A stretch of 32,726 nt of DNA from an uncultured Verrucomicrobia subdivision 3 bacterium (GTDB lineage Bacteria; Verrucomicrobiota; Verrucomicrobiia; Limisphaerales; UBA11358), in contig CAIXFY010000037.1 of NCBI GenBank assembly GCA_903918885.1, positions 1-32,726 on the forward strand, read 5' to 3'. Shown piece by piece: positions 663 through 32,105 of this stretch. A program made the translations under genes and the position numbers. Position 1 is the stretch's first letter, and each line of letters opens with the position of its first letter. The notes under the pieces are model-generated. The model saw only the letters and a program-made list of their open reading frames with translations, searched no databases and was not told where the DNA came from.

Positions 663-1970
663 ATGGAAAACAAAGTTACAGACCGCCCGGTTTCCGAGAA
701 CGCCCAGCCAGCGGCTTCGCGCACAAGAAAACTGTTGCAGAGCGGCATTGTTTTTTCGGCAGTAAGTTTCCTGACCGGTCTGGGAAACCTAGCGTTTCAA
801 GCCATCATCGGCAACCGGCTTAAGGAAAGCGGCGAGTATAGCCTAGCGAACAATACGCTCAACGGTTTCATGGGATTACTAGGGTTGCCGCTGGCTATCG
901 CCACGACCGCTATTACGCATTACATCGCCCGATTTCATTTCAGCGGTGACGACGCGCGGCTACAGGGGCTGCTGGCAGGCTGCCGGAAATTTCTTTTTCA
1001 TCTGACGCTGGCTGGTTCGGCGTTGGCCGTGACCGCCATCTTTCTGGCGCACCCCTTGAGCCACTTGTTTAACTTTCCACGAATCAGTCTGACGTTCATG
1101 GCACTGGGCTGTGTGCTGGCCGGACTTTGGGGCGGTCTGGCGACCGCACTGTGTCAGGGTCTCTCATGGTTCAAACGGCTCGCGCTCATCGGTTTTACGG
1201 GCGTGTGTCTGCGGCTGGCGTTCGGGTGGTTCATCATGCTGAAATTTCCCACGGCGGAAATGGTCATCCTGGCTTCAGGCATCATGGCTCTGGCCAATCT
1301 GGTGCTCTTATACTGGCGAAAAGATTTGGTGCGCCCCACGCCTGCCATCTCGCCATGGAACCGTGAATTCGTCGGATTTTTGATTTTGAGCGCGGCCTGC
1401 ATCGGTGGCAACTACTGCTTCATCCAGAGCGACCAGTTGGTGGCGCAAAAATATTTTCCTGCCGCCGCGCGGGATGCTTATTCCGCCGCTGGGTTATTTG
1501 CGCGCGCACTGCCCATCACGGTAGGGCCGCTATTGACGGTGTTATTCACCCACCGCTCAACGGCGCACACGGGCGATGCGTTGAGGGAGCAATTGAAATT
1601 GATTGGCCTTTACGCTGCCGGTTTAGTTTGCGGCCTCATCGGACTGCTCGTACTAAAAGTAATTTGCTTGAAAGCCATCGGCCGCTACACGCCAGAATCG
1701 GCGGCGATGATGGGACATCTGGCCACTACGATGGTCTTCGTCGGCTTGTTGCAAGCCTTGAGTCTGTGGGCGCTAGCGAGCCGCTGGGTTAAGATTGCGC
1801 TACTCTACGGCTGCTTGGGCTTGGCTTACTGGCTAACGCTGTTCGCGCTTGGAAAAACGCCGACGGCGCTGTTGACCCTGATGCCGTTGGCGGCAGGAAT
1901 CGCGTTTGCCCTCCTGTTGACCGTCTGGTTGCTGGCCATGCGCCGACACTCATCAAAAGAGCAAGCCTGA
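663..1970 (+). CDS. Polysaccharide biosynthesis protein, MOP-superfamily (Wzx/MurJ-like) flippase
   Basis: A 435-residue, strongly hydrophobic protein with a short polar N-terminus (about 25 residues rich in Asn, Arg and Pro) and roughly 12 predicted membrane segments along its length. Early motifs resembling GLGNLAFQAIIGNRL and a later segment on dimerisation-like polar residues (FIQSDQLVAQKYFP) fit the MOP exporter superfamily, whose Wzx members flip undecaprenyl-linked glycans across the inner membrane. The length is normal for the family (about 400-500). It lies in a glycan island and is divergent from the epimerase gene. The stop falls 24 bp before the convergent radical SAM gene. Other possibilities are a MATE-like transporter or a general oligosaccharide exporter. 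Family is likely; the substrate is inferred from context only. Confidence 0.75.
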   Translation: MENKVTDRPVSENAQPAASRTRKLLQSGIVFSAVSFLTGLGNLAFQAIIGNRLKESGEYSLANNTLNGFMGLLGLPLAIATTAITHYIARFHFSGDDARLQGLLAGCRKFLFHLTLAGSALAVTAIFLAHPLSHLFNFPRISLTFMALGCVLAGLWGGLATALCQGLSWFKRLALIGFTGVCLRLAFGWFIMLKFPTAEMVILASGIMALANLVLLYWRKDLVRPTPAISPWNREFVGFLILSAACIGGNYCFIQSDQLVAQKYFPAAARDAYSAAGLFARALPITVGPLLTVLFTHRSTAHTGDALREQLKLIGLYAAGLVCGLIGLLVLKVICLKAIGRYTPESAAMMGHLATTMVFVGLLQALSLWALASRWVKIALLYGCLGLAYWLTLFALGKTPTALLTLMPLAAGIAFALLLTVWLLAMRRHSSKEQA

Positions 1971-1994: not shown

Positions 1995-3158
1995 TCAGTA
2001 AGACGCCGGGTTTATGGATGTCTCTTCGTGATTAGCCGCCGCCAGATTTTCCGTCCGGCCTTTTAGCCACTGGCGATTGATTGGATGATATTGCGTGCAG
2101 CCACGGCAGGTTTCGGGGCGTTTGCCGGAGTAGAAACCCTTGATGATTTCCCAGGCTTCCGGACTTCTTGAGATTTCCTGCAGCGATTTGTCGCGGAGGT
2201 TGCCCACGACCAGATCATCCATGTCATTGCGGATGAGTCGGCAACCACAAAGCCGGACGTTGCCATCGTGTCGAACCACCAGGCCGAAAAGCGCCATACA
2301 GGGCAAGTTCAGCGCGGGCGGCAATTTCCGCAGTTTCATGAAGCCGCTCATATCCTCCGGCGTGATGGTTCCGCCCCAGTTGTCAAAATCCACGGTGTAA
2401 TTGACGCGGACGCGCGCCGATAAAAACGGCTGGATATATATTTTGAAATCCGGCGAGCGAATGATCGCGCTCGGCTTTTCGTGGTTACGAAAGCGGACAA
2501 CGATGCGCGCCGGCTCACCCTTCGAGCGGTTGTATTCCATCAGATTGCGAATGCCAGACATCGCTTCGTCGTAATGTTTCACGCCATAAATTTTTTCGTA
2601 AGCTTCCTTGCTCGCACCTTGGGTGCTGATAAAGACCGCCGCAATGCCGAGGTCGATCAGCTTTTTATAGGTGTCGTTTTTATTAATGAGAATGGCGTTG
2701 GTGGTCAGGAATACATTCTTTAGGCCGGCTTGGTTGACGGCATAATCCACCTTTTCCAAAATGCCGGGATCCACCAGCGGGTCGCCGACAACCGGCGTGA
2801 GATCGAGACTCTTGCCGCCCATCGCTACCCATTCATCCACGGCCCTTTTGAAAATTTCAAACGTCATGACGCCGGTCTGAAGGGTCTTATTGGCGACGAC
2901 CTTCGGATAGGCGCAGAAGGTGCATTTGGCATTGCAGATGTTCGTCACGCCGGTCTGCAAATTGCCGCCGTTTTGCAATCCGTGATAGTGCCCCAGTTCT
3001 TCGGGCGTGATATTATCCCGTTTCGCCCGCCGGTAGGCTAAGCGCCGGGTAATCTGGAAATAGTAATAAGCCCCCGAATAAACCGCATCGGCCAAAAGTC
3101 CATTGGCATGAACCGCACGATAAACGCGCCAGCCAATCTGGTGTAAGAAATTATTCAT
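1995..3158 (-). CDS. Radical SAM protein with C-terminal SPASM-like cysteine domain
   Basis: The 387-residue product carries the radical SAM signature CxxxCxxC at C75-C79-C82 (CNAKCTFC), which holds the 4Fe-4S cluster that cleaves S-adenosylmethionine. A TIM-barrel-like region follows, with GGKSLDLTPVVGDPLVDP in the place of the GGEP-type SAM-binding loop. The C-terminal third has a SPASM-like cluster-binding region: LPCMALFG, then VRLCGCR, then ETCRGC. The substrate is unknown. SPASM proteins modify peptides, but many members in glycan islands act on sugars or lipids, and the neighbours here (flippase, methyltransferases, glycosyltransferases) favour envelope glycan chemistry. It is transcribed away from the plus-strand operon starting at 3290, leaving a divergent 131-bp intergenic region. 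The start is ATG at 3158; no Shine-Dalgarno motif is visible. Confidence 0.87.
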   Translation of the reverse strand: MNNFLHQIGWRVYRAVHANGLLADAVYSGAYYYFQITRRLAYRRAKRDNITPEELGHYHGLQNGGNLQTGVTNICNAKCTFCAYPKVVANKTLQTGVMTFEIFKRAVDEWVAMGGKSLDLTPVVGDPLVDPGILEKVDYAVNQAGLKNVFLTTNAILINKNDTYKKLIDLGIAAVFISTQGASKEAYEKIYGVKHYDEAMSGIRNLMEYNRSKGEPARIVVRFRNHEKPSAIIRSPDFKIYIQPFLSARVRVNYTVDFDNWGGTITPEDMSGFMKLRKLPPALNLPCMALFGLVVRHDGNVRLCGCRLIRNDMDDLVVGNLRDKSLQEISRSPEAWEIIKGFYSGKRPETCRGCTQYHPINRQWLKGRTENLAAANHEETSINPASY

Positions 3159-3289
3159 TTAACAATAAGTGACTGGCTACTATGTAATTTTAAGACTTCT
3201 AAAAGTCAATCATCCTTCAGTGCGCCGCTAATTAAATTGCCACCGCCGGCCCGCTTTGTTATGTGTGGGCGGCAACAGCTTGATTGAAC

Positions 3290-4051
3290 ATGAGCAAGAA
3301 TTTCCTCCTAAAACGACTGCATGATTTTGGTGCCCGGCAACGTGAGTTGGGCATTGAACGCTCCAATGACTGGGCGGGACAAACGGCGGCAGCACTGAAA
3401 CCAGACTCCATTTTGGATGTGGGTTGTTTTGATGGTTCCATGTTGGCTCGCTATTTCAAAACGCCACCGCAGGAATATCATGGGATCGAATGCGCCCCGG
3501 ATTTCAAGGCCAAAGCGGAGCAGCGCGGCATGAAGGTGTCTGATTTCGACCTGAATGGGCGCTGGCCTTATCCGGATGATAAATTTGATGTTGTTTTCAG
3601 CTCGCAAGTCATCGAACACCTACACAACACGCGCCTGTTCGTGGAGGAAATGTTTCGGGTGCTCAAGCCCGGCGGCACGGTCATCGTAACTTCTGAAAAC
3701 TTGTGTAGCCTGCTGAACTGTTCCGCCCTGTTGCTCGGCTACACCCCTTTTTCACTGATGCAGGTTTGCGGCCGCTTCTATGGCAACCCGTTGGGACTTC
3801 ATTCGGGCGAGGCCATCAAGGAATATTTGCCGGTCGACCATCCGGCCTTCGCGGGGGTCGCCGGCCACATCCGGGTATTGACGGTGCGCCAGGCGAAGGA
3901 GATTTTTGCGCAGGCGGGCTTTGTTGATGTGGATGCCCATTCGGTGAGCATCTTGCCGCTGCCCGACGGCTTGAGCCGTTTTCTGGAAACCTTCATCCGC
4001 CAGCGCGGCCACTATCTAAATGTTAAAGCGCGCAAGCCGGCTAAAATTTAA
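3290..4051 (+). CDS. Class I SAM-dependent methyltransferase (Methyltransf_11 type)
   Basis: A soluble protein of about 253 residues. Motif I is SILDVGCFDGSM near residue 41. Motif II region is FDVVFSSQVIEHLHN, and the post-motif EEMFRVLKPGGTVIVTSEN is typical of the UbiE/Methyltransf_11 group. The frame is open to a TTG at 3284, but the ATG at 3290 (MSKNFLL) is the more natural start. No ribosome-binding site decides between them. It is the first gene of a long plus-strand run that continues through glycosyltransferases and CDP-sugar genes. It probably methylates a sugar or another glycan-linked group, though no residue seen here identifies the acceptor. The 3' neighbour, the FkbM methyltransferase, begins about 90 bp downstream. 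Confidence 0.85.
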   Translation: MSKNFLLKRLHDFGARQRELGIERSNDWAGQTAAALKPDSILDVGCFDGSMLARYFKTPPQEYHGIECAPDFKAKAEQRGMKVSDFDLNGRWPYPDDKFDVVFSSQVIEHLHNTRLFVEEMFRVLKPGGTVIVTSENLCSLLNCSALLLGYTPFSLMQVCGRFYGNPLGLHSGEAIKEYLPVDHPAFAGVAGHIRVLTVRQAKEIFAQAGFVDVDAHSVSILPLPDGLSRFLETFIRQRGHYLNVKARKPAKI

Positions 4052-4760: not shown

Positions 4761-4772
4761 ATTTTGCGCGCT

Positions 4773-5816
4773 ATGCGCCCCCCTTCCGTCCATCCCGAAA
4801 GCAATTCTCCCGCGGCCGCAAGGCTCCGTCCGCTGGTGAGCGTCATCATGCCGACGCTGAACGTCGAGCCGTTGCTGGACAACGTCCTATCCTCCCTCGC
4901 GCGGCAGACGTATCCGCAGGCCAAAATTGAAATCATTCTGGCGGACGCGCACTCGACCGACGGCACGCGGGAAATCGCCAGGAAATTCGGCGCCATCGTC
5001 CTGGACGACAACGGTAAAAACATGGAGGAAGGCAAACGCCTCGCCCTGCAGCGCGCCGTCGGCGAATACATTTTGTTCGTGGATGCGGACAACGAAATTA
5101 CGCACGCCGATTATCTCGAACTCGCCGTGACCGCGCTGGCGAACAATCCCCAGGCGCTCGGCGTGGAGGGTTATTACTTGCCTTCGCCGAAGATGAGTTC
5201 CTTTTGCGCCTACTTGTCGCATTTGCTGCACATCAGCGACCCGATTTGTTGGCTGATGAGTTCCAATCCCAAGCTGGTCGCGCGCGATGGCGAAACGGAA
5301 CGCTGGCGGTTGCCGGACGGAACCTATTCGTATCCCCTCGGCGCCAACGGCTTTGTCTATCGCCGCGTGGATTTGCAGTCGGTGCAGGCGAACGAAAAAT
5401 TCCAGGATACGCACGTCGCCCTGTTCCTGATGAAAAGCGGGAAACGCGAATGGCTGCGGATTCGCGGCCGGGGCGTGCATCATTATTACGTCCAGACACT
5501 CTGGCAATTCATCCAGAAACGCCGCCGCGCCACGGTGCATTTTCTCCGCGTGCAGGAAGAAATGCCGGTGAATTGGATGAAGGAAAAACCGCCCGTGCCG
5601 CTGTGGCTGGCGGCGATTTATTGCGTCACGTTTTTCGGCCCGTTGTGGCACACGCTGCGCGGCATCATTCGCGACGGTGATTTCCGCTGGCTCTGGCATC
5701 TGCCCGCCTGTCCGGCGAGCGTGCTGGGCAACGCGTGGGGCGTGCTGACCTACAAACGACGCGGCAAGGATAAAAAACTGATCGCCGACTTGCTGGTGAA
5801 ACAGACCTTGAAATGA
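4773..5816 (+). CDS. Glycosyltransferase family 2 with C-terminal membrane segments
   Basis: A 347-residue GT-A fold enzyme. The N-terminal pattern LVSVIMPTLNVEP, then IEIILADAHSTDGT and the metal-binding DxD motif in LFVDADNEIT (about residue 105) are standard for GT2 inverting glycosyltransferases. A hydrophobic stretch near residues 270-295 (VPLWLAAIYCVTFFGPLW) suggests association with the inner membrane. The ATG at 4773 is preferred over an in-frame TTG at 4764. The TGA stop overlaps the next ATG (ATGA at 5813-5816), so translational coupling with the next glycosyltransferase is likely. Donor and acceptor sugars are unknown; transfer to a lipid-linked oligosaccharide is inferred from the island. 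Confidence 0.88.
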   Translation: MRPPSVHPESNSPAAARLRPLVSVIMPTLNVEPLLDNVLSSLARQTYPQAKIEIILADAHSTDGTREIARKFGAIVLDDNGKNMEEGKRLALQRAVGEYILFVDADNEITHADYLELAVTALANNPQALGVEGYYLPSPKMSSFCAYLSHLLHISDPICWLMSSNPKLVARDGETERWRLPDGTYSYPLGANGFVYRRVDLQSVQANEKFQDTHVALFLMKSGKREWLRIRGRGVHHYYVQTLWQFIQKRRRATVHFLRVQEEMPVNWMKEKPPVPLWLAAIYCVTFFGPLWHTLRGIIRDGDFRWLWHLPACPASVLGNAWGVLTYKRRGKDKKLIADLLVKQTLK

Positions 5817-6892
5817 CCGCCGCACCCCAAATCGAACGGTTTGGCCATGCGGAAACCCCGCCCCTAGTCAGCATCATCGTCCTAAATTACAACGGCGAAA
5901 AATGGCTAGCCAAATGTTTTGAATCCATAAAAGCCCAGACCATTGCCAGCCAGATTGAAACGGTTTTTGCCGACAATGACTCCAGCGATTCCTCGCTGAT
6001 CACCGCCCGCGAATGGCTGGCCGATTTTCCGATGGCCGCGGTGGTTCAGACGGGCGGGAACCTGGGATTCTGCGCCGGCAACAACGTCGCCGCCGGCTTT
6101 GCGCGCGGCCAATGCTTATTTTTTTTGAACAGCGACGCCTGGCTGGAGCCGGATTGCCTTGAACAGCTGGTGGCGGAAATCCGCCGAACCGGCGCCGCGG
6201 CGGCTTCGCCGTGGGTTTTGAATTATGCCGATGACACGCATCAGGATTTGGGGTTTTTCGGCTTCGATATTTTTGGCCTGGCCAGCACCTCGAAGCCTTC
6301 CTCCGCAACCCGGGAGATTTTCATCGCTTCCGGCTGCGCCTATTTTATCGCTGCGGAAGTCTTCCGCCGGGTGGGAATGTTTGACCCCGAGTTTTTTATG
6401 TATGCCGACGAGGTGGATCTGTCGTGGCGGGTATGGATTGCCGGCCAGAAAATCGTGGGCGTGCCCGGTGCCCGCGTCCATCACCGGGGCGCGGCGGCGG
6501 CTAACCCCGCCGGCGGGATACGCACAGTGGAATTCCGCACCACCGACCAAAAGCGGTTTTTCACCAACCGGAACTGTCTGCTCACATTGTTAAAAAACGG
6601 GCAACATCTCATTGCGTTGGCCGTTGTTCCCCAGATGTTACTACTGGTGTTGGAAACCATGGTGACCTGTGGATTGCTCCGCCGGTGGTCATTTGCGAAG
6701 ACGACGTTCTGGTCGGCCCTCAAAGATTGCTGGCGGTTGCGGGCGCATATTATCGCCGAGCGTAAACGCATTGCTACCTTTCGCCAGCACAGCGATTTCT
6801 GGATGTTGCGATTTCTGCAATGGCGGCTGAACCGCTGGTTTGAAATCAAACGGCTGCTTCGATTCGGATCCCCGCGGGTGGATGCAAAATGA
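5813..6892 (+). CDS. Glycosyltransferase family 2 (rhamnosyltransferase/WbbL-like)
   Basis: A 359-residue GT2 enzyme. The signature elements are LVSIIVLNYNGEKWL at the N-terminus, FADNDSSDSS, then GNLGFCAGNN and LFFLNSDAWLEPDCL, where NSDA takes the place of the DxD motif. FDPEFFMYADEVDLSWR is the usual acceptor/catalytic-base region of WbbL-like enzymes, which transfer deoxysugars such as rhamnose. The start overlaps the previous gene by four bases. A following 92-bp gap contains an imperfect inverted repeat near 6943-6962 and precedes rfbF. Because the genes right behind it make a CDP-deoxysugar, this enzyme is a plausible user of that donor; this is inference from position. Confidence 0.88.
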   Translation: MTAAPQIERFGHAETPPLVSIIVLNYNGEKWLAKCFESIKAQTIASQIETVFADNDSSDSSLITAREWLADFPMAAVVQTGGNLGFCAGNNVAAGFARGQCLFFLNSDAWLEPDCLEQLVAEIRRTGAAAASPWVLNYADDTHQDLGFFGFDIFGLASTSKPSSATREIFIASGCAYFIAAEVFRRVGMFDPEFFMYADEVDLSWRVWIAGQKIVGVPGARVHHRGAAAANPAGGIRTVEFRTTDQKRFFTNRNCLLTLLKNGQHLIALAVVPQMLLLVLETMVTCGLLRRWSFAKTTFWSALKDCWRLRAHIIAERKRIATFRQHSDFWMLRFLQWRLNRWFEIKRLLRFGSPRVDAK

Positions 6893-6984: not shown

Positions 6985-7770
6985 ATGCAAGTAATGATTT
7001 TATGCGGCGGCTTAGGCACCCGGCTTCGGGAGGAGACGGAATACCGGCCCAAACCGATGGTGGAAGTCGGTGGGCGGCCAATTCTCTGGCACATCATGAA
7101 AGGCTACGCCACGCATGGTTTTAATGAGTTTGTCCTGTGCCTTGGCTACAAGGGCGCGACAATCAAGGATTACTTTCTGAACTACGAAACTTTCGCCAAC
7201 GATTTCACGCTGACGTTGGGTGCCAAAAAGAAATTAAAATTTCACAATGCGCATACCGAGGATGGTTGGAAAATCACGTTTGTGGAAACGGGCGCGGCCG
7301 CGATGACCGGGGCACGGGTTTTGAGCGCATTGCCACACATCACCTCCGATAACTTTGCGCTCACTTACGGCGATGGTTTAGCAGATATCGACACCAAAGC
7401 GGAATTGGCTTTTCATAAAAAACACGGTCGCCAAGCGACGGTCGCCGCGGTCATCCCGCCCTCCCGTTTCGGCGAAATGGCCATCGACGGGCTTGAGCAG
7501 GTGAATAACTTCGAGGAAAAACCCGAGACGACCGCGGGACGTATCAACGGCGGCTTTTTTATTTTGAAACGCGCGGGTTTGGAAAAATACCTCCAGCCAG
7601 CCGACGATAATCTGATTTGGGAGCGACAGCCGCTAGAAAAGCTGGCCCAAGCAAAACAACTCAAAGCCTTTCAGCATTCCGGCTATTGGCAGCCGATGGA
7701 CACTTACCGCGAGTTCGAATTGCTGAATAAACTGTGGGCTGGCGGCAAGGCTCCATGGAAAACTTGGTGA
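6985..7770 (+). CDS. rfbF: Glucose-1-phosphate cytidylyltransferase
   Basis: A 261-residue nucleotidyltransferase. It starts MQVMILCGGLGTRLREETE, followed by RPKPMVEVGGRPILWHIMKGYATHG, the combination typical of RfbF/DdhA (CTP + glucose-1-phosphate to CDP-glucose + PPi). Later elements FALTYGDGLADID and NFEEKPETTAGRINGGFF are the metal- and sugar-binding segments of the family. Length is normal (about 257-260). This is the first step of the CDP-3,6-dideoxyhexose pathway, and the next two genes encode the next two steps, which makes the assignment firm. The coding end is only 2 bp from the preferred start of rfbG. The GGAGG at 6958-6962 is about 22 nt upstream, too far to act as a ribosome-binding site. 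Confidence 0.96.
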   Translation: MQVMILCGGLGTRLREETEYRPKPMVEVGGRPILWHIMKGYATHGFNEFVLCLGYKGATIKDYFLNYETFANDFTLTLGAKKKLKFHNAHTEDGWKITFVETGAAAMTGARVLSALPHITSDNFALTYGDGLADIDTKAELAFHKKHGRQATVAAVIPPSRFGEMAIDGLEQVNNFEEKPETTAGRINGGFFILKRAGLEKYLQPADDNLIWERQPLEKLAQAKQLKAFQHSGYWQPMDTYREFELLNKLWAGGKAPWKTW

Positions 7771-7772
7771 CT

Positions 7773-8876
7773 ATGTTCGCCGGAGACTATCGTAAAAAAA
7801 AAGTGTGGCTGTCCGGGCACACGGGATTCAAGGGTGCTTGGCTGGCGCAATGGTTGCTGGAGCTAGGCGCGGAAGTTCATGGCTTTGCCTTGGAGCCGCT
7901 CACCGATCCCGCAGTGTTCAACCAACTGAAACTAACTCACCATTTGCACCATGAAATTGGCGACGTGCGCGATGCTCATGCCGTCAAAAAATCCATTCAC
8001 GCCACGCAGCCTGATTTTGTTTTCCACCTCGCGGCGCAGGCGCTGGTGCGCTATTCCTACGAGCAGCCGTTGGAAACTTATACGACGAATGTCATGGGCA
8101 CGGCGCATGTTTTGGAGGCATTACGTTCATTGGAAAAATCTTGCGCCGCTGTTATGGTCACCACGGACAAGTGTTACGAAAACCGCGAAATGGATTACGC
8201 CTACGCCGAGGAGGATCCTCTCGGCGGACACGACCCGTACAGTTCCAGTAAAGGCGCGGCGGAAATCGTCATCAGCGCGTATCGCCGCTCATTCTTCAGC
8301 CAGTCGCCCGTGCGCATTGCCAGCGCGCGCGCTGGCAACGTCATCGGCGGCGGCGACTGGGCGCGCGACCGGATCGTGCCTGACTGCATCCGCGCGTTAC
8401 AACGCGGCGACGCGATTCCCGTGCGCAATCCACACGCCACGCGCCCGTGGCAACATGTGCTGGAACCCTTAAGCGGTTATCTCTGGCTCGCCGCCACGCT
8501 GGCCAAGCCCGAACTCGTAAATGCGGAGGCGAAGGAAATTTGCAGCGCGTTCAACTTCGGCCCAGAGAAGGAGGCCAACCGCAGCGTCGGTAACTTGGTG
8601 CGCGAAGTGTTGAAAAACTGGTCCGGCCGGTGGGAAGACCAGAGCCATCTCAACGCACCGCACGAGGCGAAACTGCTTATGCTTTCCACGGTCAAGGCAA
8701 GAAAAAAATTGCGCTGGCAACCAGCCTGGAAATTTCAAACCGCCATTGCCAACACCGTGAACTGGTATCATGGCGTGAATATAAACGCCGCCGTCGCCGT
8801 AAATCTGACGCTCCGACAAATCGCCGAATACGAAGTCGCCGCCCGCGCCGCGAAAATTGCGTGGGCGGAAAAATAA
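7773..8876 (+). CDS. rfbG: CDP-glucose 4,6-dehydratase
   Basis: An extended SDR of about 367 residues. The N-terminus KVWLSGHTGFKGAWLAQWL holds the NAD-binding GxxGxxG with the GHTGFKG sequence that is characteristic of RfbG/DdhB. The active-site region has MVTTDKCYEN and DPYSSSKGAAE (Tyr-x3-Lys), followed by ARAGNVIGGGDWARDRI. It converts CDP-glucose to CDP-4-keto-6-deoxyglucose. The frame is open to GTG 7734 and ATG 7755, both overlapping the end of rfbF; ATG 7773 gives the length nearest to known enzymes (about 357) and a start 2 bp after the rfbF stop. The C-terminal extension ARAAKIAWAEK is unremarkable. Confidence in function is high, in the exact start moderate. Confidence 0.95.
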   Translation: MFAGDYRKKKVWLSGHTGFKGAWLAQWLLELGAEVHGFALEPLTDPAVFNQLKLTHHLHHEIGDVRDAHAVKKSIHATQPDFVFHLAAQALVRYSYEQPLETYTTNVMGTAHVLEALRSLEKSCAAVMVTTDKCYENREMDYAYAEEDPLGGHDPYSSSKGAAEIVISAYRRSFFSQSPVRIASARAGNVIGGGDWARDRIVPDCIRALQRGDAIPVRNPHATRPWQHVLEPLSGYLWLAATLAKPELVNAEAKEICSAFNFGPEKEANRSVGNLVREVLKNWSGRWEDQSHLNAPHEAKLLMLSTVKARKKLRWQPAWKFQTAIANTVNWYHGVNINAAVAVNLTLRQIAEYEVAARAAKIAWAEK

Positions 8877-8882
8877 TCTTTC

Positions 8883-10298
8883 ATGCCGAAGTCACCTGCC
8901 GAAATCAAAGCCGAAATCCTCAAGCTAACGCGCGAGTTTTCCGCCGCCACCCACGCCGCGAACCGCCCGGGTAACGATGCCAAGCACGCCGTCTTCGTGC
9001 CCGGCCAAAGCATAGTCCCGTATGCCGGACGCGTGTTCACGGAGGATGAAGTAGAAGCCGCTATTTCATCCACGTTGGATTTCTGGCTCACGCTTGGGCC
9101 GGAAGGCGATGCGTTTGAAAATGAACTCGCGGCTTTTCTTGGCGTCAAAAAATCGTTGCTCGTCAATTCCGGTTCGTCCGCAAACTTGCTTGCGCTCTCT
9201 GCGCTGACCAGCGACAAGCTCGGCGAACGGCATTTGCGGCAGGGCGACGAAGTTATCACTGTCGCTGCCGGTTTTCCCACGACGGTTGCACCGATCATTC
9301 AAAACGGTTGCGTGCCCGTGTTCATTGACAATGATCCGGTGACGCTCAACGGCCGCGTGGATCAACTGGAAGACGCGTTCGTTCCCAGAAAAACCAAGGC
9401 GGTGATGATGGCGCATACGTTGGGCAATCCGTTCGACCTCGCCGCCGTCACCGAATTTTGCCAGCGCCATAACCTCTGGCTCATCGAGGACAATTGCGAT
9501 GCGCTGGGCTGTCGCTACGATGGAAAAATCACCGGAACCTTTGGCGATCTCTCAACGCAAAGTTTTTATCCGCCGCACCATTTGACGATGGGCGAGGGCG
9601 GCGCGGTGAGTGTCGTCCGCGACATGAAATTAAAAGTGCTGGTGGAAAGTTTTCGCGACTGGGGCCGGGATTGCTGGTGCGCGAGCGGCAAGGACGACAC
9701 CTGCCACAAACGTTTCGGCTGGAAACTGGGCGAGCTGCCCGAAGGCTACGACCACAAATATATCTACTCGCACCTCGGCTACAACCTGAAGCCGCTTGAT
9801 CCGCAGGCTGCCATTGGCCGGCAGCAGTTGAAAAAATTGCCGGCGTTCATCCAGGCGCGCATCGACAATTGGAATCATCTCCGCTCCGCGCTTCAGGAAT
9901 TGGAGGAATTCATCCAGTTCCAGCTCCCGACCCACGCGACCGGCTGGACGCCTCAGGGTTTCACTTGGGACAACTCTGGTCATCGCAGCGAGTGCTCTTG
10001 GTTCGGCTTCATGATGCTGGTGAAGAAAAACGCGCCGTTCACGCGCCGTGAATTTGCCCAGCATCTCGACGCGGCGAAGATTGGCAACCGGATGCTGTTT
10101 GGCGGCAATCTCGTGCGCCAGCCCGCTTTCGTCAGCCTGAAGAAACAGCAGCCGAATGCGTTCCGCGTGGTGGGAGATTTGGCCGGGGCTGACCGCATCA
10201 TGAACGAAGCGGTGTTCATCGGCACCTATCCCGGCCTGACGCCGGCCATGCTGGATTACATGGTGGCGACCATCCGCCATTTCGTGCGGTCCCGGTAA
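8883..10298 (+). CDS. rfbH: CDP-6-deoxy-4-hexulose-3-dehydrase (E1), lipopolysaccharide biosynthesis RfbH
   Basis: A 471-residue PMP-dependent enzyme of the aminotransferase fold I family. The decisive site is SFYPPHHLTMGEGG, where His replaces the PLP-anchoring Lys of ordinary sugar aminotransferases. That substitution defines E1 (AscC/DdhC/RfbH), which performs C3 dehydration rather than transamination. A cysteine group, DCWCASGKDDTCHKRFGW, is the [2Fe-2S] ligand region unique to E1. GSSANLLALSAL and LIEDNCDALG are further cofactor-binding segments. The enzyme acts on CDP-4-keto-6-deoxyglucose and normally needs a flavin/iron-sulphur reductase partner (E3, AscD/DdhD) to finish C3 deoxygenation; no such gene is in this window. 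It starts 6 bp after rfbG and ends 1 bp before the next gene. Confidence 0.96.
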   Translation: MPKSPAEIKAEILKLTREFSAATHAANRPGNDAKHAVFVPGQSIVPYAGRVFTEDEVEAAISSTLDFWLTLGPEGDAFENELAAFLGVKKSLLVNSGSSANLLALSALTSDKLGERHLRQGDEVITVAAGFPTTVAPIIQNGCVPVFIDNDPVTLNGRVDQLEDAFVPRKTKAVMMAHTLGNPFDLAAVTEFCQRHNLWLIEDNCDALGCRYDGKITGTFGDLSTQSFYPPHHLTMGEGGAVSVVRDMKLKVLVESFRDWGRDCWCASGKDDTCHKRFGWKLGELPEGYDHKYIYSHLGYNLKPLDPQAAIGRQQLKKLPAFIQARIDNWNHLRSALQELEEFIQFQLPTHATGWTPQGFTWDNSGHRSECSWFGFMMLVKKNAPFTRREFAQHLDAAKIGNRMLFGGNLVRQPAFVSLKKQQPNAFRVVGDLAGADRIMNEAVFIGTYPGLTPAMLDYMVATIRHFVRSR

Positions 10299-10299
10299 A

Positions 10300-11217
10300 A
10301 TGGCTGGCATGAAAATTCTAATCACTGGCGTGACGGGATTTATTGGTAGTCACATTGCCCGTTCGGTGTTGGCGGCTGGCTGTGAAGTCGTAGCACTCCG
10401 TCGCGAAAAATCCAGTCTGGCCCGCTGCACTGATTTTCAAAACCAAGTCACCTGGCTGAACCATGATATTTCGGATTGGGCGCAACGAGCCATCACGGAA
10501 AAACCTGAGGTCATCATTCATGCGGCGTGGATTGGAGTCACCGCTGTCGAGCGGGTGGAACTGAAGTTACAAGCCGCCAATTTGGATCTTTTTGACGAGC
10601 TGTTGGAGATCGCCGGCAGCGTGAATCTCAAGCAGTTCATTGCGCTTGGGTCGCAGGCGGAATATGGCCCCATCAACGGCCGGGTGGATGAAGATTATCC
10701 CTGCCAGCCGGACACCGCCTACGGGGTGACGAAACTGGATTGTCTGGCCCGGTTAGAAAATGTCGCGCGGCAAAAAAAAATGGCTTACGTCTGGCTGCGC
10801 CTCTTTTCGGTGTATGGTCCGGGCGAGGGCGGGCAATGGTTCATTCCCAGTCTGATCCGGCAGATGAAACTGGGCCAGTCGCCGCCATTGTCCGGCTGCG
10901 AGCAGCGCTACGATTACCTGCACGTCCAGGATCTGGCCGCGGGTATTCTGGCCGTGTTGCGCCAGCCGGACACCAGCGGTGTGTTTAATTTGAGTTCCAA
11001 CGCTTCGCTGCCCCTGAAACAGGTGGTGCAACTGATTCAGCAATATACCGGCGGGCGCGTGGAGCCGGCATTTGGCGCGCTGCCCTACCGCCCGGGTCAG
11101 TCCATGCATCTGGAAGGCGATAGCTCCCGCTTCAATCAGACCTTTGCTTTCCGGCCGCAAATCAACATCATGGACGGGTTGCGCCAACTGGTCGAAGCCA
11201 CCGGGGCGACCACCTGA
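10300..11217 (+). CDS. NAD(P)-dependent SDR epimerase/reductase acting on a CDP-dideoxysugar
   Basis: A 305-residue extended SDR. The N-terminus MKILITGVTGFIGSHIARSVL contains the Rossmann GxxGxxG. The catalytic Tyr-x3-Lys is in AYGVTKLDCLARL, and the substrate-side VWLRLFSVYGPGEGG is typical of nucleotide-sugar SDRs. Immediately downstream of rfbH, relatives are 4-ketoreductases such as CDP-abequose or CDP-paratose synthase. Because an acetolactate-synthase-like gene follows, a second option is reduction of the acetyl branch, as needed to finish a yersiniose-type sugar. ATG at 10300 lies 1 bp after the rfbH stop; ATG at 10309 (MKILITG) is equally possible. Family is clear, the precise reaction is inferred from neighbours. 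Confidence 0.85.
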   Translation: MAGMKILITGVTGFIGSHIARSVLAAGCEVVALRREKSSLARCTDFQNQVTWLNHDISDWAQRAITEKPEVIIHAAWIGVTAVERVELKLQAANLDLFDELLEIAGSVNLKQFIALGSQAEYGPINGRVDEDYPCQPDTAYGVTKLDCLARLENVARQKKMAYVWLRLFSVYGPGEGGQWFIPSLIRQMKLGQSPPLSGCEQRYDYLHVQDLAAGILAVLRQPDTSGVFNLSSNASLPLKQVVQLIQQYTGGRVEPAFGALPYRPGQSMHLEGDSSRFNQTFAFRPQINIMDGLRQLVEATGATT

Positions 11218-11246
11218 ACCTTGGTGTTTAATGAATTGATATCCGG

Positions 11247-12968
11247 ATGAAAGTTTCTGACTACATCGCTAATTTTTTGGAACGCAAAGGCGTCACCTGT
11301 GTCTTTGAATTGTCCGGCGGCATGATCGCGCATCTGCTGGATTCCTTCGGGTCGCTGAAGAAAATTCAAGTGGTCAGCATGCACCATGAGCAGGGGGCTG
11401 CCTTTGCCGCTGAAGCGTATGGCCGCATGACCGGCGTGCCCGGCGTGGCGCTCGCCACCAGCGGACCCGGTGCCACCAATCTGCTGACCGGCGTTGGTAG
11501 TTGCCACTTCGATTCCTCGCCGGCGGTCTTCATCACCGGTCAGGTGAACCGGCACGAACAAAAAGGTGACCGGCCCATCCGGCAGCTCGGTTTTCAGGAG
11601 ACGGACATTGTCAACATGGTCGGGCCAATCACCAAGGCCGCGTGGAAGATCCAAACTCCGGAAGAAATTCCCGCGATGTTTGAAAAGGCTTTTAACGTGG
11701 CCTCGGGCGGACGTCCCGGACCGGTGCTGCTGGATGTGCCGATGGATGTTCAGCGGGCTGATATTCCAGAGGCTCCACCGTCCCCGCTCGCCTCGCCGTC
11801 GGTCCCCGCGCCCGCCGAATCTTTCTGGCAGCGGCTGGGGGAACAGATGCGTCGGGCGCAGCGCCCGTTGATTTTGGTCGGCGGTGGCATCCGTTCTGGT
11901 CGGGCTGCTGAACTGCTCCGGAATTTTGCCGACCGCTGCGGCGTGCCGGTGGTGCATTCCCTCATGGGCGTGGATGTGCTGCCCTACGCCCATCCCCTGC
12001 GGGTGGGTATGATTGGCAGCTATGGCAACCGCTGGGCCAATTGGGCCGTTGGCACCTCGGATTTTCTGCTGGTGCTGGGCAGCCGGCTGGATGTGCGGCA
12101 AACCGGGTCAGAGATTGAATCGTTCAAGGGCGGGCGCGTTATTTTTCACGTTGATTGCGACTCGGGTGAAGTCAACAACCGGATCAGTGGCTGCGAATCC
12201 GCCGTCTGCCAGATATCTGATTTTCTGAGGGTCGCCATAAAAAAGCTGCCATCCTTCCAGCTGGCAGAACCGATGGGCTGGGGGGCGCAAATCACGGCCA
12301 AACGCCAGGAATGGCCGGATGTGCGCGAAAGCACCGGCGTCACCGGCTTGAACCCGAATGAATTTATGCACGCGTTGTCCCAGGCCTCCGGCCAAGCGTG
12401 TGCGTATGTGGCGGATGTCGGCCAGCACCAGATGTGGGCGGCGCAGTCGTTGGAGTTGACCGGGTCGCAGCGCTTTCTCACCTCCGGCGGCATGGGGTCA
12501 ATGGGTTTTGCTTTGCCGGCAGCAATTGGTGCCGCTTTTGCCTGCCCTCAAAAACCGGTCGTGGTCATCGCGGGCGATGGCGCATTCCAGTGCAACATTC
12601 AGGAATTGCAGACCGTGAAGCGGAACCATCTGCCCTTGAAGCTTGTCATCATCAATAACCACAGTCTCGGCATGGTGCGGCAGTTCCAGGAAAGCTATTT
12701 TGATTCTCGTTTTCAATCTACCGTGTGGGGCTATTCCGCCCCGGATTTTGTGAAGGTGGCGGAAGCTTACGGCATCCCGGCTCGGCGCATTTCCGTCGCC
12801 GGTGAAGTGGCCGAGGCGTTGCGCTGGTTGTGGTCGGATCCGCTTGCCCCGATGCTGCTGGAAGTGGACATCGCCACCACGGCCAATGTTTATCCCAAGA
12901 TGGCGTTTGGGCGACCGGTCACGGAAATGGAGCCGTTTTGCAAGCCAAGGGAAATGGAAGGCACTTGA
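11247..12968 (+). CDS. Acetolactate synthase-like TPP-dependent enzyme, candidate YerE-type branched-sugar synthase
   Basis: A 573-residue protein with the three-domain thiamine-pyrophosphate enzyme layout. The N-terminal PYR domain contains the catalytic Glu in MHHEQGAAFAAEAYGRMTG (about residue 49) and LATSGPGATNLLTGV. A central domain follows with LILVGGGIRSGRAAELL. The C-terminal domain has the TPP/Mg motif VIAGDGAFQ through IINNHSLGM (GDG-x25-30-NN). Ordinary acetolactate synthase (IlvB) has the same plan, but here it directly follows rfbF-rfbG-rfbH and an SDR with no ilvN partner. That is the setting of Yersinia YerE, which adds a two-carbon unit from pyruvate to C4 of a CDP-3,6-dideoxy-4-ketohexose. 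I infer that role; a misplaced IlvB-like enzyme is the alternative. Confidence 0.8.
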   Translation: MKVSDYIANFLERKGVTCVFELSGGMIAHLLDSFGSLKKIQVVSMHHEQGAAFAAEAYGRMTGVPGVALATSGPGATNLLTGVGSCHFDSSPAVFITGQVNRHEQKGDRPIRQLGFQETDIVNMVGPITKAAWKIQTPEEIPAMFEKAFNVASGGRPGPVLLDVPMDVQRADIPEAPPSPLASPSVPAPAESFWQRLGEQMRRAQRPLILVGGGIRSGRAAELLRNFADRCGVPVVHSLMGVDVLPYAHPLRVGMIGSYGNRWANWAVGTSDFLLVLGSRLDVRQTGSEIESFKGGRVIFHVDCDSGEVNNRISGCESAVCQISDFLRVAIKKLPSFQLAEPMGWGAQITAKRQEWPDVRESTGVTGLNPNEFMHALSQASGQACAYVADVGQHQMWAAQSLELTGSQRFLTSGGMGSMGFALPAAIGAAFACPQKPVVVIAGDGAFQCNIQELQTVKRNHLPLKLVIINNHSLGMVRQFQESYFDSRFQSTVWGYSAPDFVKVAEAYGIPARRISVAGEVAEALRWLWSDPLAPMLLEVDIATTANVYPKMAFGRPVTEMEPFCKPREMEGT

Positions 12969-14276: not shown

Positions 14277-15374
14277 ATGAAAGCTTTTCTGGGTTCGGTC
14301 TTTGGGTGTTCCATTCTTGTTTTTCTTTCCGCCATTTTCTCCATCGCCAGCGCTGCCGACACGAATCCGCCGCCGCGCTTGACAGTGGAACTGCGCGACG
14401 GTTCCCGCGTGGTCGGCGAGAGTGTTGAAAAATACTTCAAGTTCCACTCCTCGTTACCGAGTGAAATTAAACTCGCCCTGAAAGACATCCGTTCGCTTGA
14501 ATGCGTCTCCAGCAACTCGGCAAAATTGTCCACCGTCAATGGTGATACGTTGACCGTTGCCTTCCTAGATTCCAAAATCACCGTCAAGACGAGTTTTGGT
14601 CAGGTGGATTTGCCGGTGAATTCAGTGCGCAAATTTTCCGTGTCGGCGGGCGGCAAGGGTTCGCATCCGCCGGGTTTGGTGGCTTTGTGGTCGGGCGATA
14701 GCGATGGCAATGATGCCGTCGGCGGTCACACGGCGACGTTGATGGACATTACGTTTGCCGAGGGCAAAGTGGGTCAGGCTTTTTCTTTCAATGGAACGAG
14801 TTCGAGCATCCGGATTCCAGCCAGTCCGGCGCTGAATGTGGGCGTGGGCGACGGCTTTACCATCACGGCATGGATTAAGCCGTCGAATGTTGATGGTCTT
14901 CATCCAATCCTTTACTGGTCGAATCCAGATCAAGTTCAATTATGGATTAGCGCCCGGCCTGACGAAACGGGTGTCTTGCGGGGCAATATTATGCCCGGAA
15001 AGAACGGCGGATGGTTGGTTTCGCAGCAAGGGGTGCTCGCCAGCGGTGTTTTCCAGCATATTGCCATGACCTATGATAAAGCCAGCAGCATGAGCATGCT
15101 GTATGTGAATGGTGCGATGGTGGCCCAACACCAATTGAGTCCTCAGATGGCTGCCGATACGAAAGGCGACTTTTGGTTCAGCAAGATTGATCGGCTTCCG
15201 GGCAGTTGGTCAACCAACCGCGCTTTTGTCGGTTTGATGGATGAAGTTGCCATCTACAATCGGGCGCTCTCCGCTGAAGAAATTCAGACCCTCTGCACCG
15301 AGCAAAATAACGGTCAACCGCTGCCACAGCCAACGCCCTCGACCGGCTGGCGCGAATTGATGTTTGTCAATTGA
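14277..15374 (+). CDS. Secreted LamG-like jellyroll fold domain protein
   Basis: A 365-residue protein with a clear signal peptide (MKAFLGSV, hydrophobic core to about residue 25, cleavage probably after SIASA). Residues about 34-116 form a module, LTVELRDGSRVVGESV through FGQVDLPVNSVRKFSV, also present twice in the next gene. Residues about 130-350 look like a concanavalin A/LamG jellyroll: GLVALWSGDSDGNDAVGGH, FNGTSSSIRI, FTITAWIKPSN, HIAMTYDKASSMSMLYVNG and the typical terminal MDEVAIYNRALSAEEIQ. LamG domains bind carbohydrate or mediate adhesion, and the protein should be periplasmic or at the surface. It ends 41 bp before its paralogue. The ligand is unknown. Confidence 0.85.
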   Translation: MKAFLGSVFGCSILVFLSAIFSIASAADTNPPPRLTVELRDGSRVVGESVEKYFKFHSSLPSEIKLALKDIRSLECVSSNSAKLSTVNGDTLTVAFLDSKITVKTSFGQVDLPVNSVRKFSVSAGGKGSHPPGLVALWSGDSDGNDAVGGHTATLMDITFAEGKVGQAFSFNGTSSSIRIPASPALNVGVGDGFTITAWIKPSNVDGLHPILYWSNPDQVQLWISARPDETGVLRGNIMPGKNGGWLVSQQGVLASGVFQHIAMTYDKASSMSMLYVNGAMVAQHQLSPQMAADTKGDFWFSKIDRLPGSWSTNRAFVGLMDEVAIYNRALSAEEIQTLCTEQNNGQPLPQPTPSTGWRELMFVN

Positions 15375-15415
15375 TGTTTTGACAAATTGCGCTTCCAATG
15401 ACTGATTCAAATCGA

Positions 15416-16762
15416 ATGAAAACACTGTTTCAACTTTTCAGCGTCCTGTGTGTCTCGCATTTTTGCGTCATTCAAGGTTGGGCTGGTTCCGCCGACACGG
15501 ATCGGCTTCGACGCCTGACGGTGGAACTGCGCGACGGTTCGCGCGTGGTCGGCCAAAGCGTGGAGAACACCGTGAGCGTTCACTCCGCCGCCATGGGCGA
15601 CTTAAAATTGGCTTGGGCGGGCATCCGCTCCATCGAATATGCCGCTAGCACCGACGCCGCCCGGTTGACGGCGACCAACGGCGACGGGTTCGCCGTGCAA
15701 CTTAACGTGGATACGCTCCGCCTTGAAACCGACTTCGGCAAAACTGAGTTGCCGGTAAAACTGATTCGTAGCATCAAAGTCACGCCGGAGCCAAAACGTA
15801 AAATCGCCTCGGCCACGCCGGCGGTGAACGCCACCGGCTTTCGCCTGACCATTGAGCTGCGTGATGGTTCGCATCTTGTCGGGAAAGGCTTGGACGACGC
15901 GCTGAATTTTCATTCTTCGACGATGGGCGATTTGAAACTGGGTTGGGCGGGCATTCGCTCGGTCATTTATGCGTCCGAGCAGTCACCGGCGGCGCGTTTG
16001 ACGACGACTAATGGGGATGCGTATGAAGTCGAGTTTGTGACTCCCGCTGTGCGGGTGGAAACCAGTTTCGGCAAAAATGAACTGCCGGTGAAAGCCATCC
16101 GCAGCCTCAAAGTCTCGGCGCTGGGCGGGCGGAGACAATTGCCATCTGGCTTGGTGGCACTTTGGTCGGGCGAAGGGAATGCCGACGACAGCGTGACCGG
16201 AAACATTGGCACATTAAATGGCGGTGCGACCTTTTCCGAGGGCGAGGTGGGGCAGGCATTTAAGTTTCACAACATCGGCGACTCGGTGACCGCCCCGGCT
16301 ACCGGACTTCTGGTGGGAGCCGAAGATAGGACCATCGCCTGTTGGATTTATGTCGAATCTTTTATTCCCGGAGCGGAAGCCACCATCGCCGTCTATGGGG
16401 ATTTTAGTGCGGCCAATCAAGCCTATTTAATTTATTTCGATAACCAGCCCGACCACCGGCTGCGTTTTTCCTCATGGGGGAACGCACTGGTTGGGCCATC
16501 GCTGGACGCTGACCGCTGGCATCACGTTGCCGTGACCAGCACCGGAACAGGTTCTACCACGCTCTATGCGGATGGCATTCGAGTGGCCAGCGGTTCATTT
16601 AACTTAAACACGCCGCCAGACAGTATATTTCGCATCGGCCAAATTGCTGAACCGGATTGCATCCGGCAATTCATCGGACGGATTGACGAAGTAGCCGTCT
16701 TTAACCGCGCCTTGTCCGCCGAGGAAATCCGAAAGGAATACGAGGCCGGTAACAAAAACTGA
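15416..16762 (+). CDS. Secreted LamG-like protein with duplicated N-terminal module
   Basis: About 448 residues from the ATG at 15416, which gives a good signal peptide (MKTLFQLFSVLC to about WAGSA). The frame is also open from ATG 15398. Two tandem copies of the same roughly 80-residue module follow: LTVELRDGSRVVGQSV through LPVKLIRSIKV, and LTIELRDGSHLVGKGL through LPVKAIRSLKV. A C-terminal LamG/ConA-like domain ends in IDEVAVFNRALSAEEIRKEYEAGN. It is a paralogue of the preceding gene with an extra module, and the DNA encoding ELRDGSRVVG is nearly identical in the two genes, so the duplication looks fairly recent. An extracellular carbohydrate-binding or adhesive role is likely. The function of the module is unknown. 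Confidence 0.84.
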   Translation: MKTLFQLFSVLCVSHFCVIQGWAGSADTDRLRRLTVELRDGSRVVGQSVENTVSVHSAAMGDLKLAWAGIRSIEYAASTDAARLTATNGDGFAVQLNVDTLRLETDFGKTELPVKLIRSIKVTPEPKRKIASATPAVNATGFRLTIELRDGSHLVGKGLDDALNFHSSTMGDLKLGWAGIRSVIYASEQSPAARLTTTNGDAYEVEFVTPAVRVETSFGKNELPVKAIRSLKVSALGGRRQLPSGLVALWSGEGNADDSVTGNIGTLNGGATFSEGEVGQAFKFHNIGDSVTAPATGLLVGAEDRTIACWIYVESFIPGAEATIAVYGDFSAANQAYLIYFDNQPDHRLRFSSWGNALVGPSLDADRWHHVAVTSTGTGSTTLYADGIRVASGSFNLNTPPDSIFRIGQIAEPDCIRQFIGRIDEVAVFNRALSAEEIRKEYEAGNKN

Positions 16763-28303: not shown

Positions 28304-28371
28304 TGGATATTATTCTCTTAGTGCCGTCCAAATTAGCAGCGCAGTAATGATTAAGATCAACAGCATATCAA

Positions 28372-31605: not shown

Positions 31606-31621
31606 GGTAGTTATTGGTTAG

Positions 31622-32092: not shown

Positions 32093-32105
32093 TTATTTTG
32101 TCCAG

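Follow-up and report, generated by a model that had tools for sequence, protein, structure and literature searches.

A Probable Gene Cassette for a CDP-Activated 4-C-Branched 3,6-Dideoxyhexose, with a YerE-Type ThDP Enzyme, in a Probable Verrucomicrobium

Organization of the Cassette

The window analyzed here (the whole stretch of DNA, 32,726 nt) carries, from the reading of its ORFs, five contiguous genes, all on the + strand, at 6985..12968. These are rfbF (ddhA), encoding a glucose-1-phosphate cytidylyltransferase (6985..7770); rfbG (ddhB), encoding a CDP-glucose 4,6-dehydratase (7755..8876, with a start maybe at 7773); rfbH (ddhC), encoding a CDP-4-keto-6-deoxyglucose-3-dehydrase, or E1 (8883..10298); an extended SDR gene (10300..11217), whose product we propose as the reductase of an exocyclic ketone; and the gene of a TPP (ThDP) enzyme predicted to be a YerE-type carboligase, i.e., the C4 branching enzyme (11247..12968). 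rfbF and rfbG are spaced by −16 nt with the ATG at 7755 or by +2 nt with the ATG at 7773 (the ORF list gives a GTG start at 7734); the following gaps are of 6 nt (rfbG-rfbH), 1 nt (rfbH-SDR), and 29 nt (SDR-TPP gene). An earlier, sequence-only reading had placed the five ORFs at these coordinates and described them as one contiguous run, and both statements are borne out. Since these genes co-occur in other organisms too, their grouping is not due to chance.

Two GT2 glycosyltransferase genes, also on the + strand, precede the cassette. The first one (4764..5816; PF00535, 70.8 bits) encodes a possible transferase of the sugar, and the second one (5813..6892; PF00535, 81.8 bits), immediately 5′ of rfbF, may be linked to it as well. 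Further upstream, on the same strand, lies the gene of a membrane protein (663..1970) with about 10 hydrophobic segments by hydropathy count and no Pfam or NCBIfam match, for which a polysaccharide flippase is a weak guess. The ORF located 3′ of the TPP gene is on the opposite strand and weakly GT2-like; hence, no ilvN adjoins the TPP gene. The promoter scan gave 0 (3.8 in shuffles) and the terminator scan 13 (11.1 in shuffles).

RfbF, RfbG, and RfbH each score above the curated NCBIfam cut-off, with 329.4 bits for TIGR02623 (cut-off 300.25), 476.5 bits for TIGR02622 (cut-off 278.45), and 666.5 bits for NF011936 (cut-off 423), respectively. When RfbH is aligned with the E1 of Y. pseudotuberculosis (3bcx), H220, which we take to be the catalytic histidine, corresponds to H232, and C193, C251, C253, and C261, presumably the Fe-S ligands, correspond to C205, C264, C266, and C274. 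The histidine site previously pointed out in RfbH is thus confirmed.

Electron Supply to RfbH

Judging from its genes, the window has the RfbF, RfbG, and RfbH expected of a CDP-3,6-dideoxyhexose pathway and lacks the dedicated E3. Indeed, no E3 (RfbI/AscD/DdhD) was found in the cluster or in the 91%-complete source genome, and the Fer2 domain has no match in that genome. The DdhD of Yersinia vastinensis (L009) matches there only residues 143–313 of an FNR-like ORF (contig C9), and full-length E3-like matches are found elsewhere in two other genomes with a YerE-class enzyme (G098, E 2e-33; G101, E 3e-29). Because no dedicated E3 is present, RfbH would probably receive its electrons from general carriers, i.e., ferredoxin or flavodoxin together with an FNR-type reductase.

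The ThDP Enzyme Belongs to the YerE Class

The protein encoded at 11247..12968 contains three TPP-enzyme Pfam domains. The 25 NCBIfam models listed for it all score below their cut-off, and the best ones are models of acetolactate synthase (AHAS), TIGR00118 (large subunit) reaching 461.8 bits for a cut-off of 538.35. Its best solved relative is 5ahk (459 bits, with AHAS reaching at most 330 bits), which is presumably the Pseudomonas YerE (PpYerE). The PDB entry is labelled acetolactate synthase II, and databases also name the relatives of the TPP protein acetolactate synthase.

We built a broad and a careful tree. The broad one took 12 of the at least 120 TPP relatives (among the matches listed), 15 of the 16 rfbH-linked JanthE-type genes and, as AHAS rows, 14 of the 74 AHAS-like loci plus the genome's own paralogue, E. 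coli IlvB and IlvI, and six rows from the phylum. The TPP protein falls there in a 25-row clade with 5ahk and the Yersinia enzyme (support 96), while the other TPP paralogue of the source genome sits in the AHAS clade. Three of the phylum rows initially labelled AHAS (L091, L092, and L106) fell beside the JanthE class, and were dropped from the AHAS set for the AU test, the class columns, and the pocket comparison. In the careful tree, which took 5 of the TPP relatives and 7 of the rfbH-linked JanthE-type genes, the TPP protein groups with 5ahk and the rfb-linked Yersinia enzyme (95/94), AHAS stands apart (100/100), and L006 and L008 join YerE weakly (83/71). The YerE and JanthE classes together form a ketone-branching superclade (100/100), within which the JanthE clade (100/100) excludes our protein, so a JanthE-type identity was rejected. 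An AU test, chosen after the first tree had been seen, rejects joining the protein's family to AHAS (p 3.6e-5). Phylogeny against YerE and IlvB had been named beforehand as the test able to refute the proposal, and it places the protein on the YerE side.

The residues agree with the trees. At the 21 class columns, which were defined with the TPP protein itself among the rows, it carries the YerE letter 21 times, 5ahk 18 times, and the AHAS paralogue of the source genome never. AHAS large subunits (IlvB/IlvI) share its domains, the HEQ glutamate region, and the GDG motif, but they belong to a different clade and differ at these columns; F480 stands where 19 of 20 AHAS rows carry Trp, and a stretch at 104–109 is additional relative to them. 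Moreover, the window enzyme has no small subunit: TIGR00119 finds nothing in the source genome (91% complete) but does match in 13 of 14 control genomes, in agreement with the missing ilvN partner reported before. The trees, the AU test, the class residues, and the TIGR00118 score below cut-off lead us to reject an AHAS identity, and the protein is of the YerE type.

Inside the class, F116 and R284 are identical in all 25 YerE-class rows and, with Y259, are the residues of 5ahk and of the Yersinia enzyme, whereas these positions vary among JanthE-class rows (the JanthE pocket was mapped with a numbering offset of 1, which fits 8 of 8 named residues). The match to 5ahk is of 44% identity over the alignment, and two pocket-lining positions differ (S288/A and K551/R). 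JanthE itself (PDB 8rph, PMC12188165) is 31% identical, with CDG instead of GDG and other pocket residues. The pocket positions make pyruvate the more likely donor.

We also looked at the neighborhood of related enzymes, and the YerE class is linked to rfb genes: RfbH is nearby in 12 of 14 YerE-class loci and in none of 74 AHAS-like loci. The two exceptions, within the stretches available, are L117 and L118, and no RfbH was found at threshold in genome G101, which has a YerE-class enzyme. The order F-G-H-SDR-TPP recurs in Pelosinus (L006), in Deinococcales (L005), and in G163 (L114). The yersiniose genes of Yersinia are, as we take it, ddhDABC-yerE-yerF. In Y. vastinensis, RfbF/G/H and a YerE-type enzyme (43% identical to ours) likewise lie in one cluster, but an E3 gene (Fer2, FAD, and NAD domains) stands 5′ of rfbF and the SDR located downstream of the TPP gene is unlike that of the window.

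The SDR between rfbH and the TPP Gene

Against the SDR that takes the YerF position in Yersinia (L009:9713-10642), the window SDR (PF01370, 145 bits) gives a BLASTP E of 0.14, with 18% identity over 192 residues, and the comparison of SDR sets shows no link between the two; a YerF identity is therefore unsupported. The cofactor Gly motif and Tyr141/Lys145 are present in 115 of 115 relatives compared, and Ser118 in 114 (4 of 119 relatives, shorter than 285 aa, were excluded). These motifs do not decide the role, because reductases and epimerases have them in common. Family libraries return names at superfamily level only, their best family-level models being epimerases, all below cut-off, and the best solved relative is MoeE5 (E 8.7e-21). 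As a proxy, and among the matches listed, 21 of 92 SDR relatives at 48% identity or more lie on contigs equal in length to those of TPP relatives, against 0 of 26 at 41–46%. An SDR gene occupies the same place between rfbH and the TPP gene in L005, L006, L114, and L115. The window SDR is, however, outside the SDR set of L005, L113b, L114, L115, L116, and L119, i.e., that of most other loci. In L113, a member of this common set adjoins a distant relative (25%) of the window SDR, and, with both kinds side by side there, the window SDR may have another role.

A Proposed Pathway and Its Alternatives

Taken together, the cassette probably directs the synthesis of a CDP-activated, 4-C-branched 3,6-dideoxyhexose of the yersiniose kind, a route indicated by the RfbF/G/H scores, the E1 residues, the tree and AU test that place the TPP enzyme, and its linkage to RfbH. 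Yersiniose-type branched sugars are rare; Yersinia and a small number of other bacteria are known to carry them in their outer coat. This kind of pathway is already known, and the window is a further example, in a probable verrucomicrobium. RfbF would produce CDP-glucose, which RfbG would convert to CDP-4-keto-6-deoxyglucose, and RfbH, with PMP and its Fe-S center, would remove the C3 hydroxyl. The YerE-type enzyme would then decarboxylate a small 2-keto acid (pyruvate being the likeliest) and, by analogy with its class, transfer the acetyl unit to the ketone at C4, which would become a tertiary alcohol. The SDR would reduce the new exocyclic ketone, and a glycosyltransferase would bring the sugar into a surface glycan. 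We infer this last reduction, since the SDR has no detectable similarity to the one in the YerF position, and likewise we infer the stereochemistry and final glycan of the product. The branched-dideoxysugar proposal made from the sequence is thus supported, and qualified by an SDR without YerF similarity and by the lack of a canonical E3 gene.

The step most exposed to another explanation is the exocyclic reduction. The SDR could be a different enzyme, for instance an epimerase, the branch remaining acetyl or being reduced by an enzyme encoded elsewhere; the lack of YerF similarity, the position outside the common SDR set, the coexistence of both kinds in L113, and the epimerase names make this a serious though minority possibility, which the shared rfbH-to-TPP position counters. 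The exocyclic reduction of yersiniose A and B was itself termed uncharacterised in a passage of a 2016 paper (PMC4753412). It is unlikely that the TPP enzyme, while YerE-like, takes a 2-keto acid that is longer or hydroxylated as its donor, which would extend the branch beyond two carbons (as in sugars resembling erwiniose, gastriose, or caryophyllose). According to a section of a 2025 review (PMC12247030), the YerE-like enzymes ErwE, MMAR_2332, and MygE vary in donor, and our protein is just 44% identical to 5ahk; on the other side, the pocket residues F116, R284, and Y259 are those of 5ahk and Yersinia, in a comparison made with JanthE-class rows.

Two further readings would dissociate the TPP enzyme from the sugar. 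Plain CDP-3,6-dideoxyhexose pathways have an SDR as their final enzyme, and 17 of 90 RfbH genomes of the phylum encode neither ThDP class at the thresholds used, so the SDR might reduce the C4 ketone directly, giving an abequose- or paratose-like sugar, with the TPP enzyme acting elsewhere. With the TPP gene starting 29 nt after the SDR gene, and its class tied to rfbH in other organisms, we consider this improbable. Less probable still is an ordinary acetolactate synthase located by chance behind a 3,6-dideoxyhexose operon: the names of the relatives and the top NCBIfam models point that way, but those models stay below cut-off, and the trees, the AU test, F480, the extra stretch, the absence of ilvN, and a separate paralogue in the AHAS clade all argue against it.

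Possible Branched Sugars in the Phylum

RfbH was found in 90 of the 387 genomes sampled in the phylum, and 73 of these 90 also encode a ThDP enzyme of YerE type (6) or JanthE type (67). Hence, RfbH products in the phylum may usually end up branched, which extends what had been proposed for the single cluster. In the open-licence literature searched, we found no paper whose listing ties such branched sugars to Verrucomicrobiota. More tentatively, at slightly less than even chances, we picture a phylum where organisms with RfbH make C-branched 3,6-dideoxysugars as a rule, where two separate ThDP classes, the YerE and JanthE types, perform the branching, where the loci rely on three or more SDR sets that show no clear orthology and may set differing branch stereochemistry, and where RfbH commonly has no adjacent E3; the window cassette would be a version with its own SDR set.

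YerE-like enzymes are wanted as catalysts for chiral tertiary alcohols. The 2025 review (PMC12247030) mentions, in part of its text, more than 200 of them found by gene-cluster similarity, most of them without a known sugar. With its E3 missing and its SDR unrelated, the window's pathway offers two testable steps, namely the electron source of an E1 without E3 and the reductase that sets the exocyclic stereocenter. The co-occurrence in 73 of 90 genomes, for its part, predicts the kind of sugar to seek in the surface glycans of the phylum.

A Probable YerE-Type Cassette and Its Enzyme

The cassette is a further example of an already known pathway type, from which it departs by a different SDR and by the lack of any E3 (RfbI/DdhD reductase) found. 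It belongs to a genome of 2.46 Mb (85 contigs, 91% complete), of which the window, at 32,726 bases, is the entire contig C37. As the sequence-only reading had it, rfbF (6985..7770), rfbG (7755..8876), and rfbH (8883..10298) are present, their products all scoring above the curated scores of the respective NCBIfam equivalogs, and they are directly followed by the SDR gene (10300..11217) and the TPP gene (11247..12968), all on the (+) strand, with successive gaps of -16 or +2, 6, 1, and 29 nt. The TPP gene, also as proposed, is without an ilvN partner. Indeed, the next ORF lies in the opposite orientation and is weakly GT2-like, and ilvN gave 0 matches in this 91%-complete genome, whereas 13 of 14 control genomes were matched.

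The TPP protein falls outside the AHAS enzymes. Among solved structures, its top relative is 5ahk (459 bits), which we take to be YerE of Pseudomonas protegens and whose entry is titled acetolactate synthase II; plant, E. coli, and yeast AHAS reach at most 330 bits. In a quick tree (69 rows), the protein shares a clade of 25 rows (support 96) with 5ahk and with the rfb-linked enzyme of Yersinia vastinensis, and 20 AHAS rows, including E. coli IlvB, IlvI, and the genome's second paralogue, form a separate clade (97). A careful tree (36 rows, long branches removed) recovers AHAS (100/100), the YerE and JanthE classes together (100/100), and the query with 5ahk and Yersinia (95/94). The Pelosinus and Paenibacillus loci (L006 and L008) stand weakly on the YerE side in this tree (83/71), and the quick tree does not settle their placement. 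Constraining the query family with AHAS, apart from 5ahk and Yersinia, was rejected by an AU test whose hypothesis was chosen after the tree was seen (p 3.6e-5). Among 21 columns dividing YerE-class from AHAS rows, defined on 25 rows that include the query itself, the YerE letter occurs in 21 for the query, 18 for 5ahk, and 0 for the genome's AHAS paralogue (e.g., F480, shared by 25/25 YerE-class rows, with Trp in 19/20 AHAS rows). Both trees, the AU test, and the class columns reject the AHAS reading, and the phylogeny by which the YerE-like assignment was to stand or fall places the protein on the YerE side. The AHAS paralogue itself lies at 30936-32726 (-) of contig C15, in the same 91%-complete genome that gave no ilvN match.

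The gene neighbourhood agrees with this placement. Profiling of contigs for TPP relatives gave at least 597 matching stretches, and 80 loci were kept. Genes of the rfb type stand alongside in all six loci at least 43% identical (Peregrinibacteria, Deinococcales, Pelosinus, Actinomycetota, Paenibacillus, and Yersinia) and in none of the 74 at most 40% identical. Within the phylum, the YerE-type class occurs in 8 of 387 sampled genomes (at least 51% identity; next match 42%). RfbH was found within the collected stretch in 12 of the 14 class loci (i.e., these 8 and the 6 named), being truncated by the contig end in L115, or in 10 of 12 when the weakly placed L006 and L008 are excluded; L117 has RfbF only, and L118 neither. 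In the actinomycetotal locus L007, a single rfbF and rfbH have two ThDP genes nearby, one JanthE-like (2222-3991, (-)) and one of the YerE type (7968-9665, (+)).

Two query residues at positions of the JanthE pocket, F116 and R284, are common to all compared YerE-class and AHAS rows, and these positions vary in JanthE-class rows. This likeness makes a small donor, for example pyruvate, the likelier one. Longer donors are described for ErwE, MMAR_2332, and MygE in PMC12247030.

Verrucomicrobiota-labelled close relatives of the TPP protein and SDR, which suggest this phylum for the genome, were P0009 and P0013 (83%), P0126, and P0142; P0080, a 67% relative, is labelled Acidobacteria. The cassette looks accessory, since TPP, SDR, and RfbH were all without a match, at the thresholds applied, in the same-genus genome G295.

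Departures from the Yersinia Arrangement

RfbH aligns with Yersinia pseudotuberculosis E1 (3bcx) at 468 bits. His220 and cysteines 193, 251, 253, and 261 of 3bcx, presumably the catalytic His and the Fe-S ligands, correspond to His232, which bears out the predicted His-for-Lys site, and to cysteines 205, 264, 266, and 274. In Yersinia (L009), a gene of the E3 type (Fer2, FAD, and NAD domains) precedes rfbF, unlike in the window. The Fer2 domain gave 0 matches across the 91%-complete genome, and a single weak FAD_binding_6 match lies within an FNR-like ORF on contig C9. Similarly, tblastn of Yersinia E3 against the loci then collected gave 0 matches in RfbH loci of the phylum. An FNR-like gene stands near rfbH in three phylum loci (L119, L116, and L166); in L119, the one scanned with Pfam, it shows no Fer2 domain. 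Full-length E3-like matches (29-31%) found elsewhere in genomes G098 and G101 count against a general rule of no E3. SpnQ receives electrons from general carriers, and by analogy the RfbH of the window probably does so too.

For some RfbH homologues, the alignment breaks into two pieces near residue 213-217 of the window RfbH, around an insert of ~25 to 56 residues that contains no stop and lies shortly N-terminal of the catalytic His (e.g., L165:7132-8646 and L113:2345-3994). Both pieces were listed for G122, G181, G243, G189, and G316, and one piece for G140, G292, G268, G085, and G354; the window RfbH is without this insert.

The window SDR has the usual SDR motifs and differs from the SDR downstream of the Yersinia TPP gene, to which it shows no detectable similarity (E 0.14). 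Sequence comparison divides the SDRs of the compared loci into three sets: that of the window, weakly linked to L006 (27%) and L113a (25%); that of L005, L113b, L114, L115, L116, and L119 (30-47% mutually alike); and that of Yersinia and Paenibacillus (35%). At E <=1e-40, the window SDR is matched in 1 of 387 genomes, its own. Locus L113 encodes one SDR from each of the first two sets, an argument against assuming one shared job.

YerE chemistry has been described along with more than 200 candidates (PMC12247030). O-antigens of several Gram-negative genera contain yersiniose A and B, whose ketoreduction had yet to be characterised as of 2016 (PMC4753412). Our search of open-licence literature, which may have missed spellings with a comma, turned up no paper that, judged by its listing, links branched sugars to Verrucomicrobiota; a food review (PMC8620815) contains Verrucomicrobi and branched sugars once each.

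JanthE-Type Enzymes across the Phylum

RfbH (E <=1e-90) occurs in 90 of the 387 genomes and a JanthE-type match (E <=1e-95) in 77. JanthE is a YerE-like enzyme described as accepting ketones (PMC12188165). The RfbH genomes comprise 67 with the JanthE type, 6 more with the YerE type, and 17 with neither, three of which (G040, G135, and G358) have a TPP gene beside rfbH truncated by the stretch or contig end. This co-occurrence gave a Fisher p of 5e-44 (kinship of genomes ignored), and the JanthE-type gene lies at most 10 kb from rfbH in 45 of the 90. Across the phylum's rfbH loci (L134-L158 and L160-L185), it follows or neighbours rfbH in many genomes. In 22 loci with wider flanks (L160-L166 and L171-L185), chosen mostly from the highest RfbH scores, 16 have a TPP gene; all 16 score better with JanthE than with the query, and the 7 included in the careful tree all group with JanthE (100/100). 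From class and linkage, we infer that the JanthE-type enzymes of these RfbH genomes branch sugars.

A ThDP side group adjoins the JanthE class (L091, L092, and L106, in G078, G216, and G371). At least G078 and G216 are among the 77 genomes, neither being among the 67, and the wide stretches around L091 and L092 hold no RfbH. These enzymes may branch other sugars.

Other Genes in the Window

A radical SAM protein with a SPASM domain (1995-3158, (-)) is encoded amid polysaccharide genes, and two neighbouring proteins (14277-16762, (+)) each end in a C-terminal LamG-type (Laminin_G_3) domain. Finally, a ResIII-domain protein adjoining an N6/N4 DNA methylase (24908-30078, (-)) resembles a type III restriction-modification pair.
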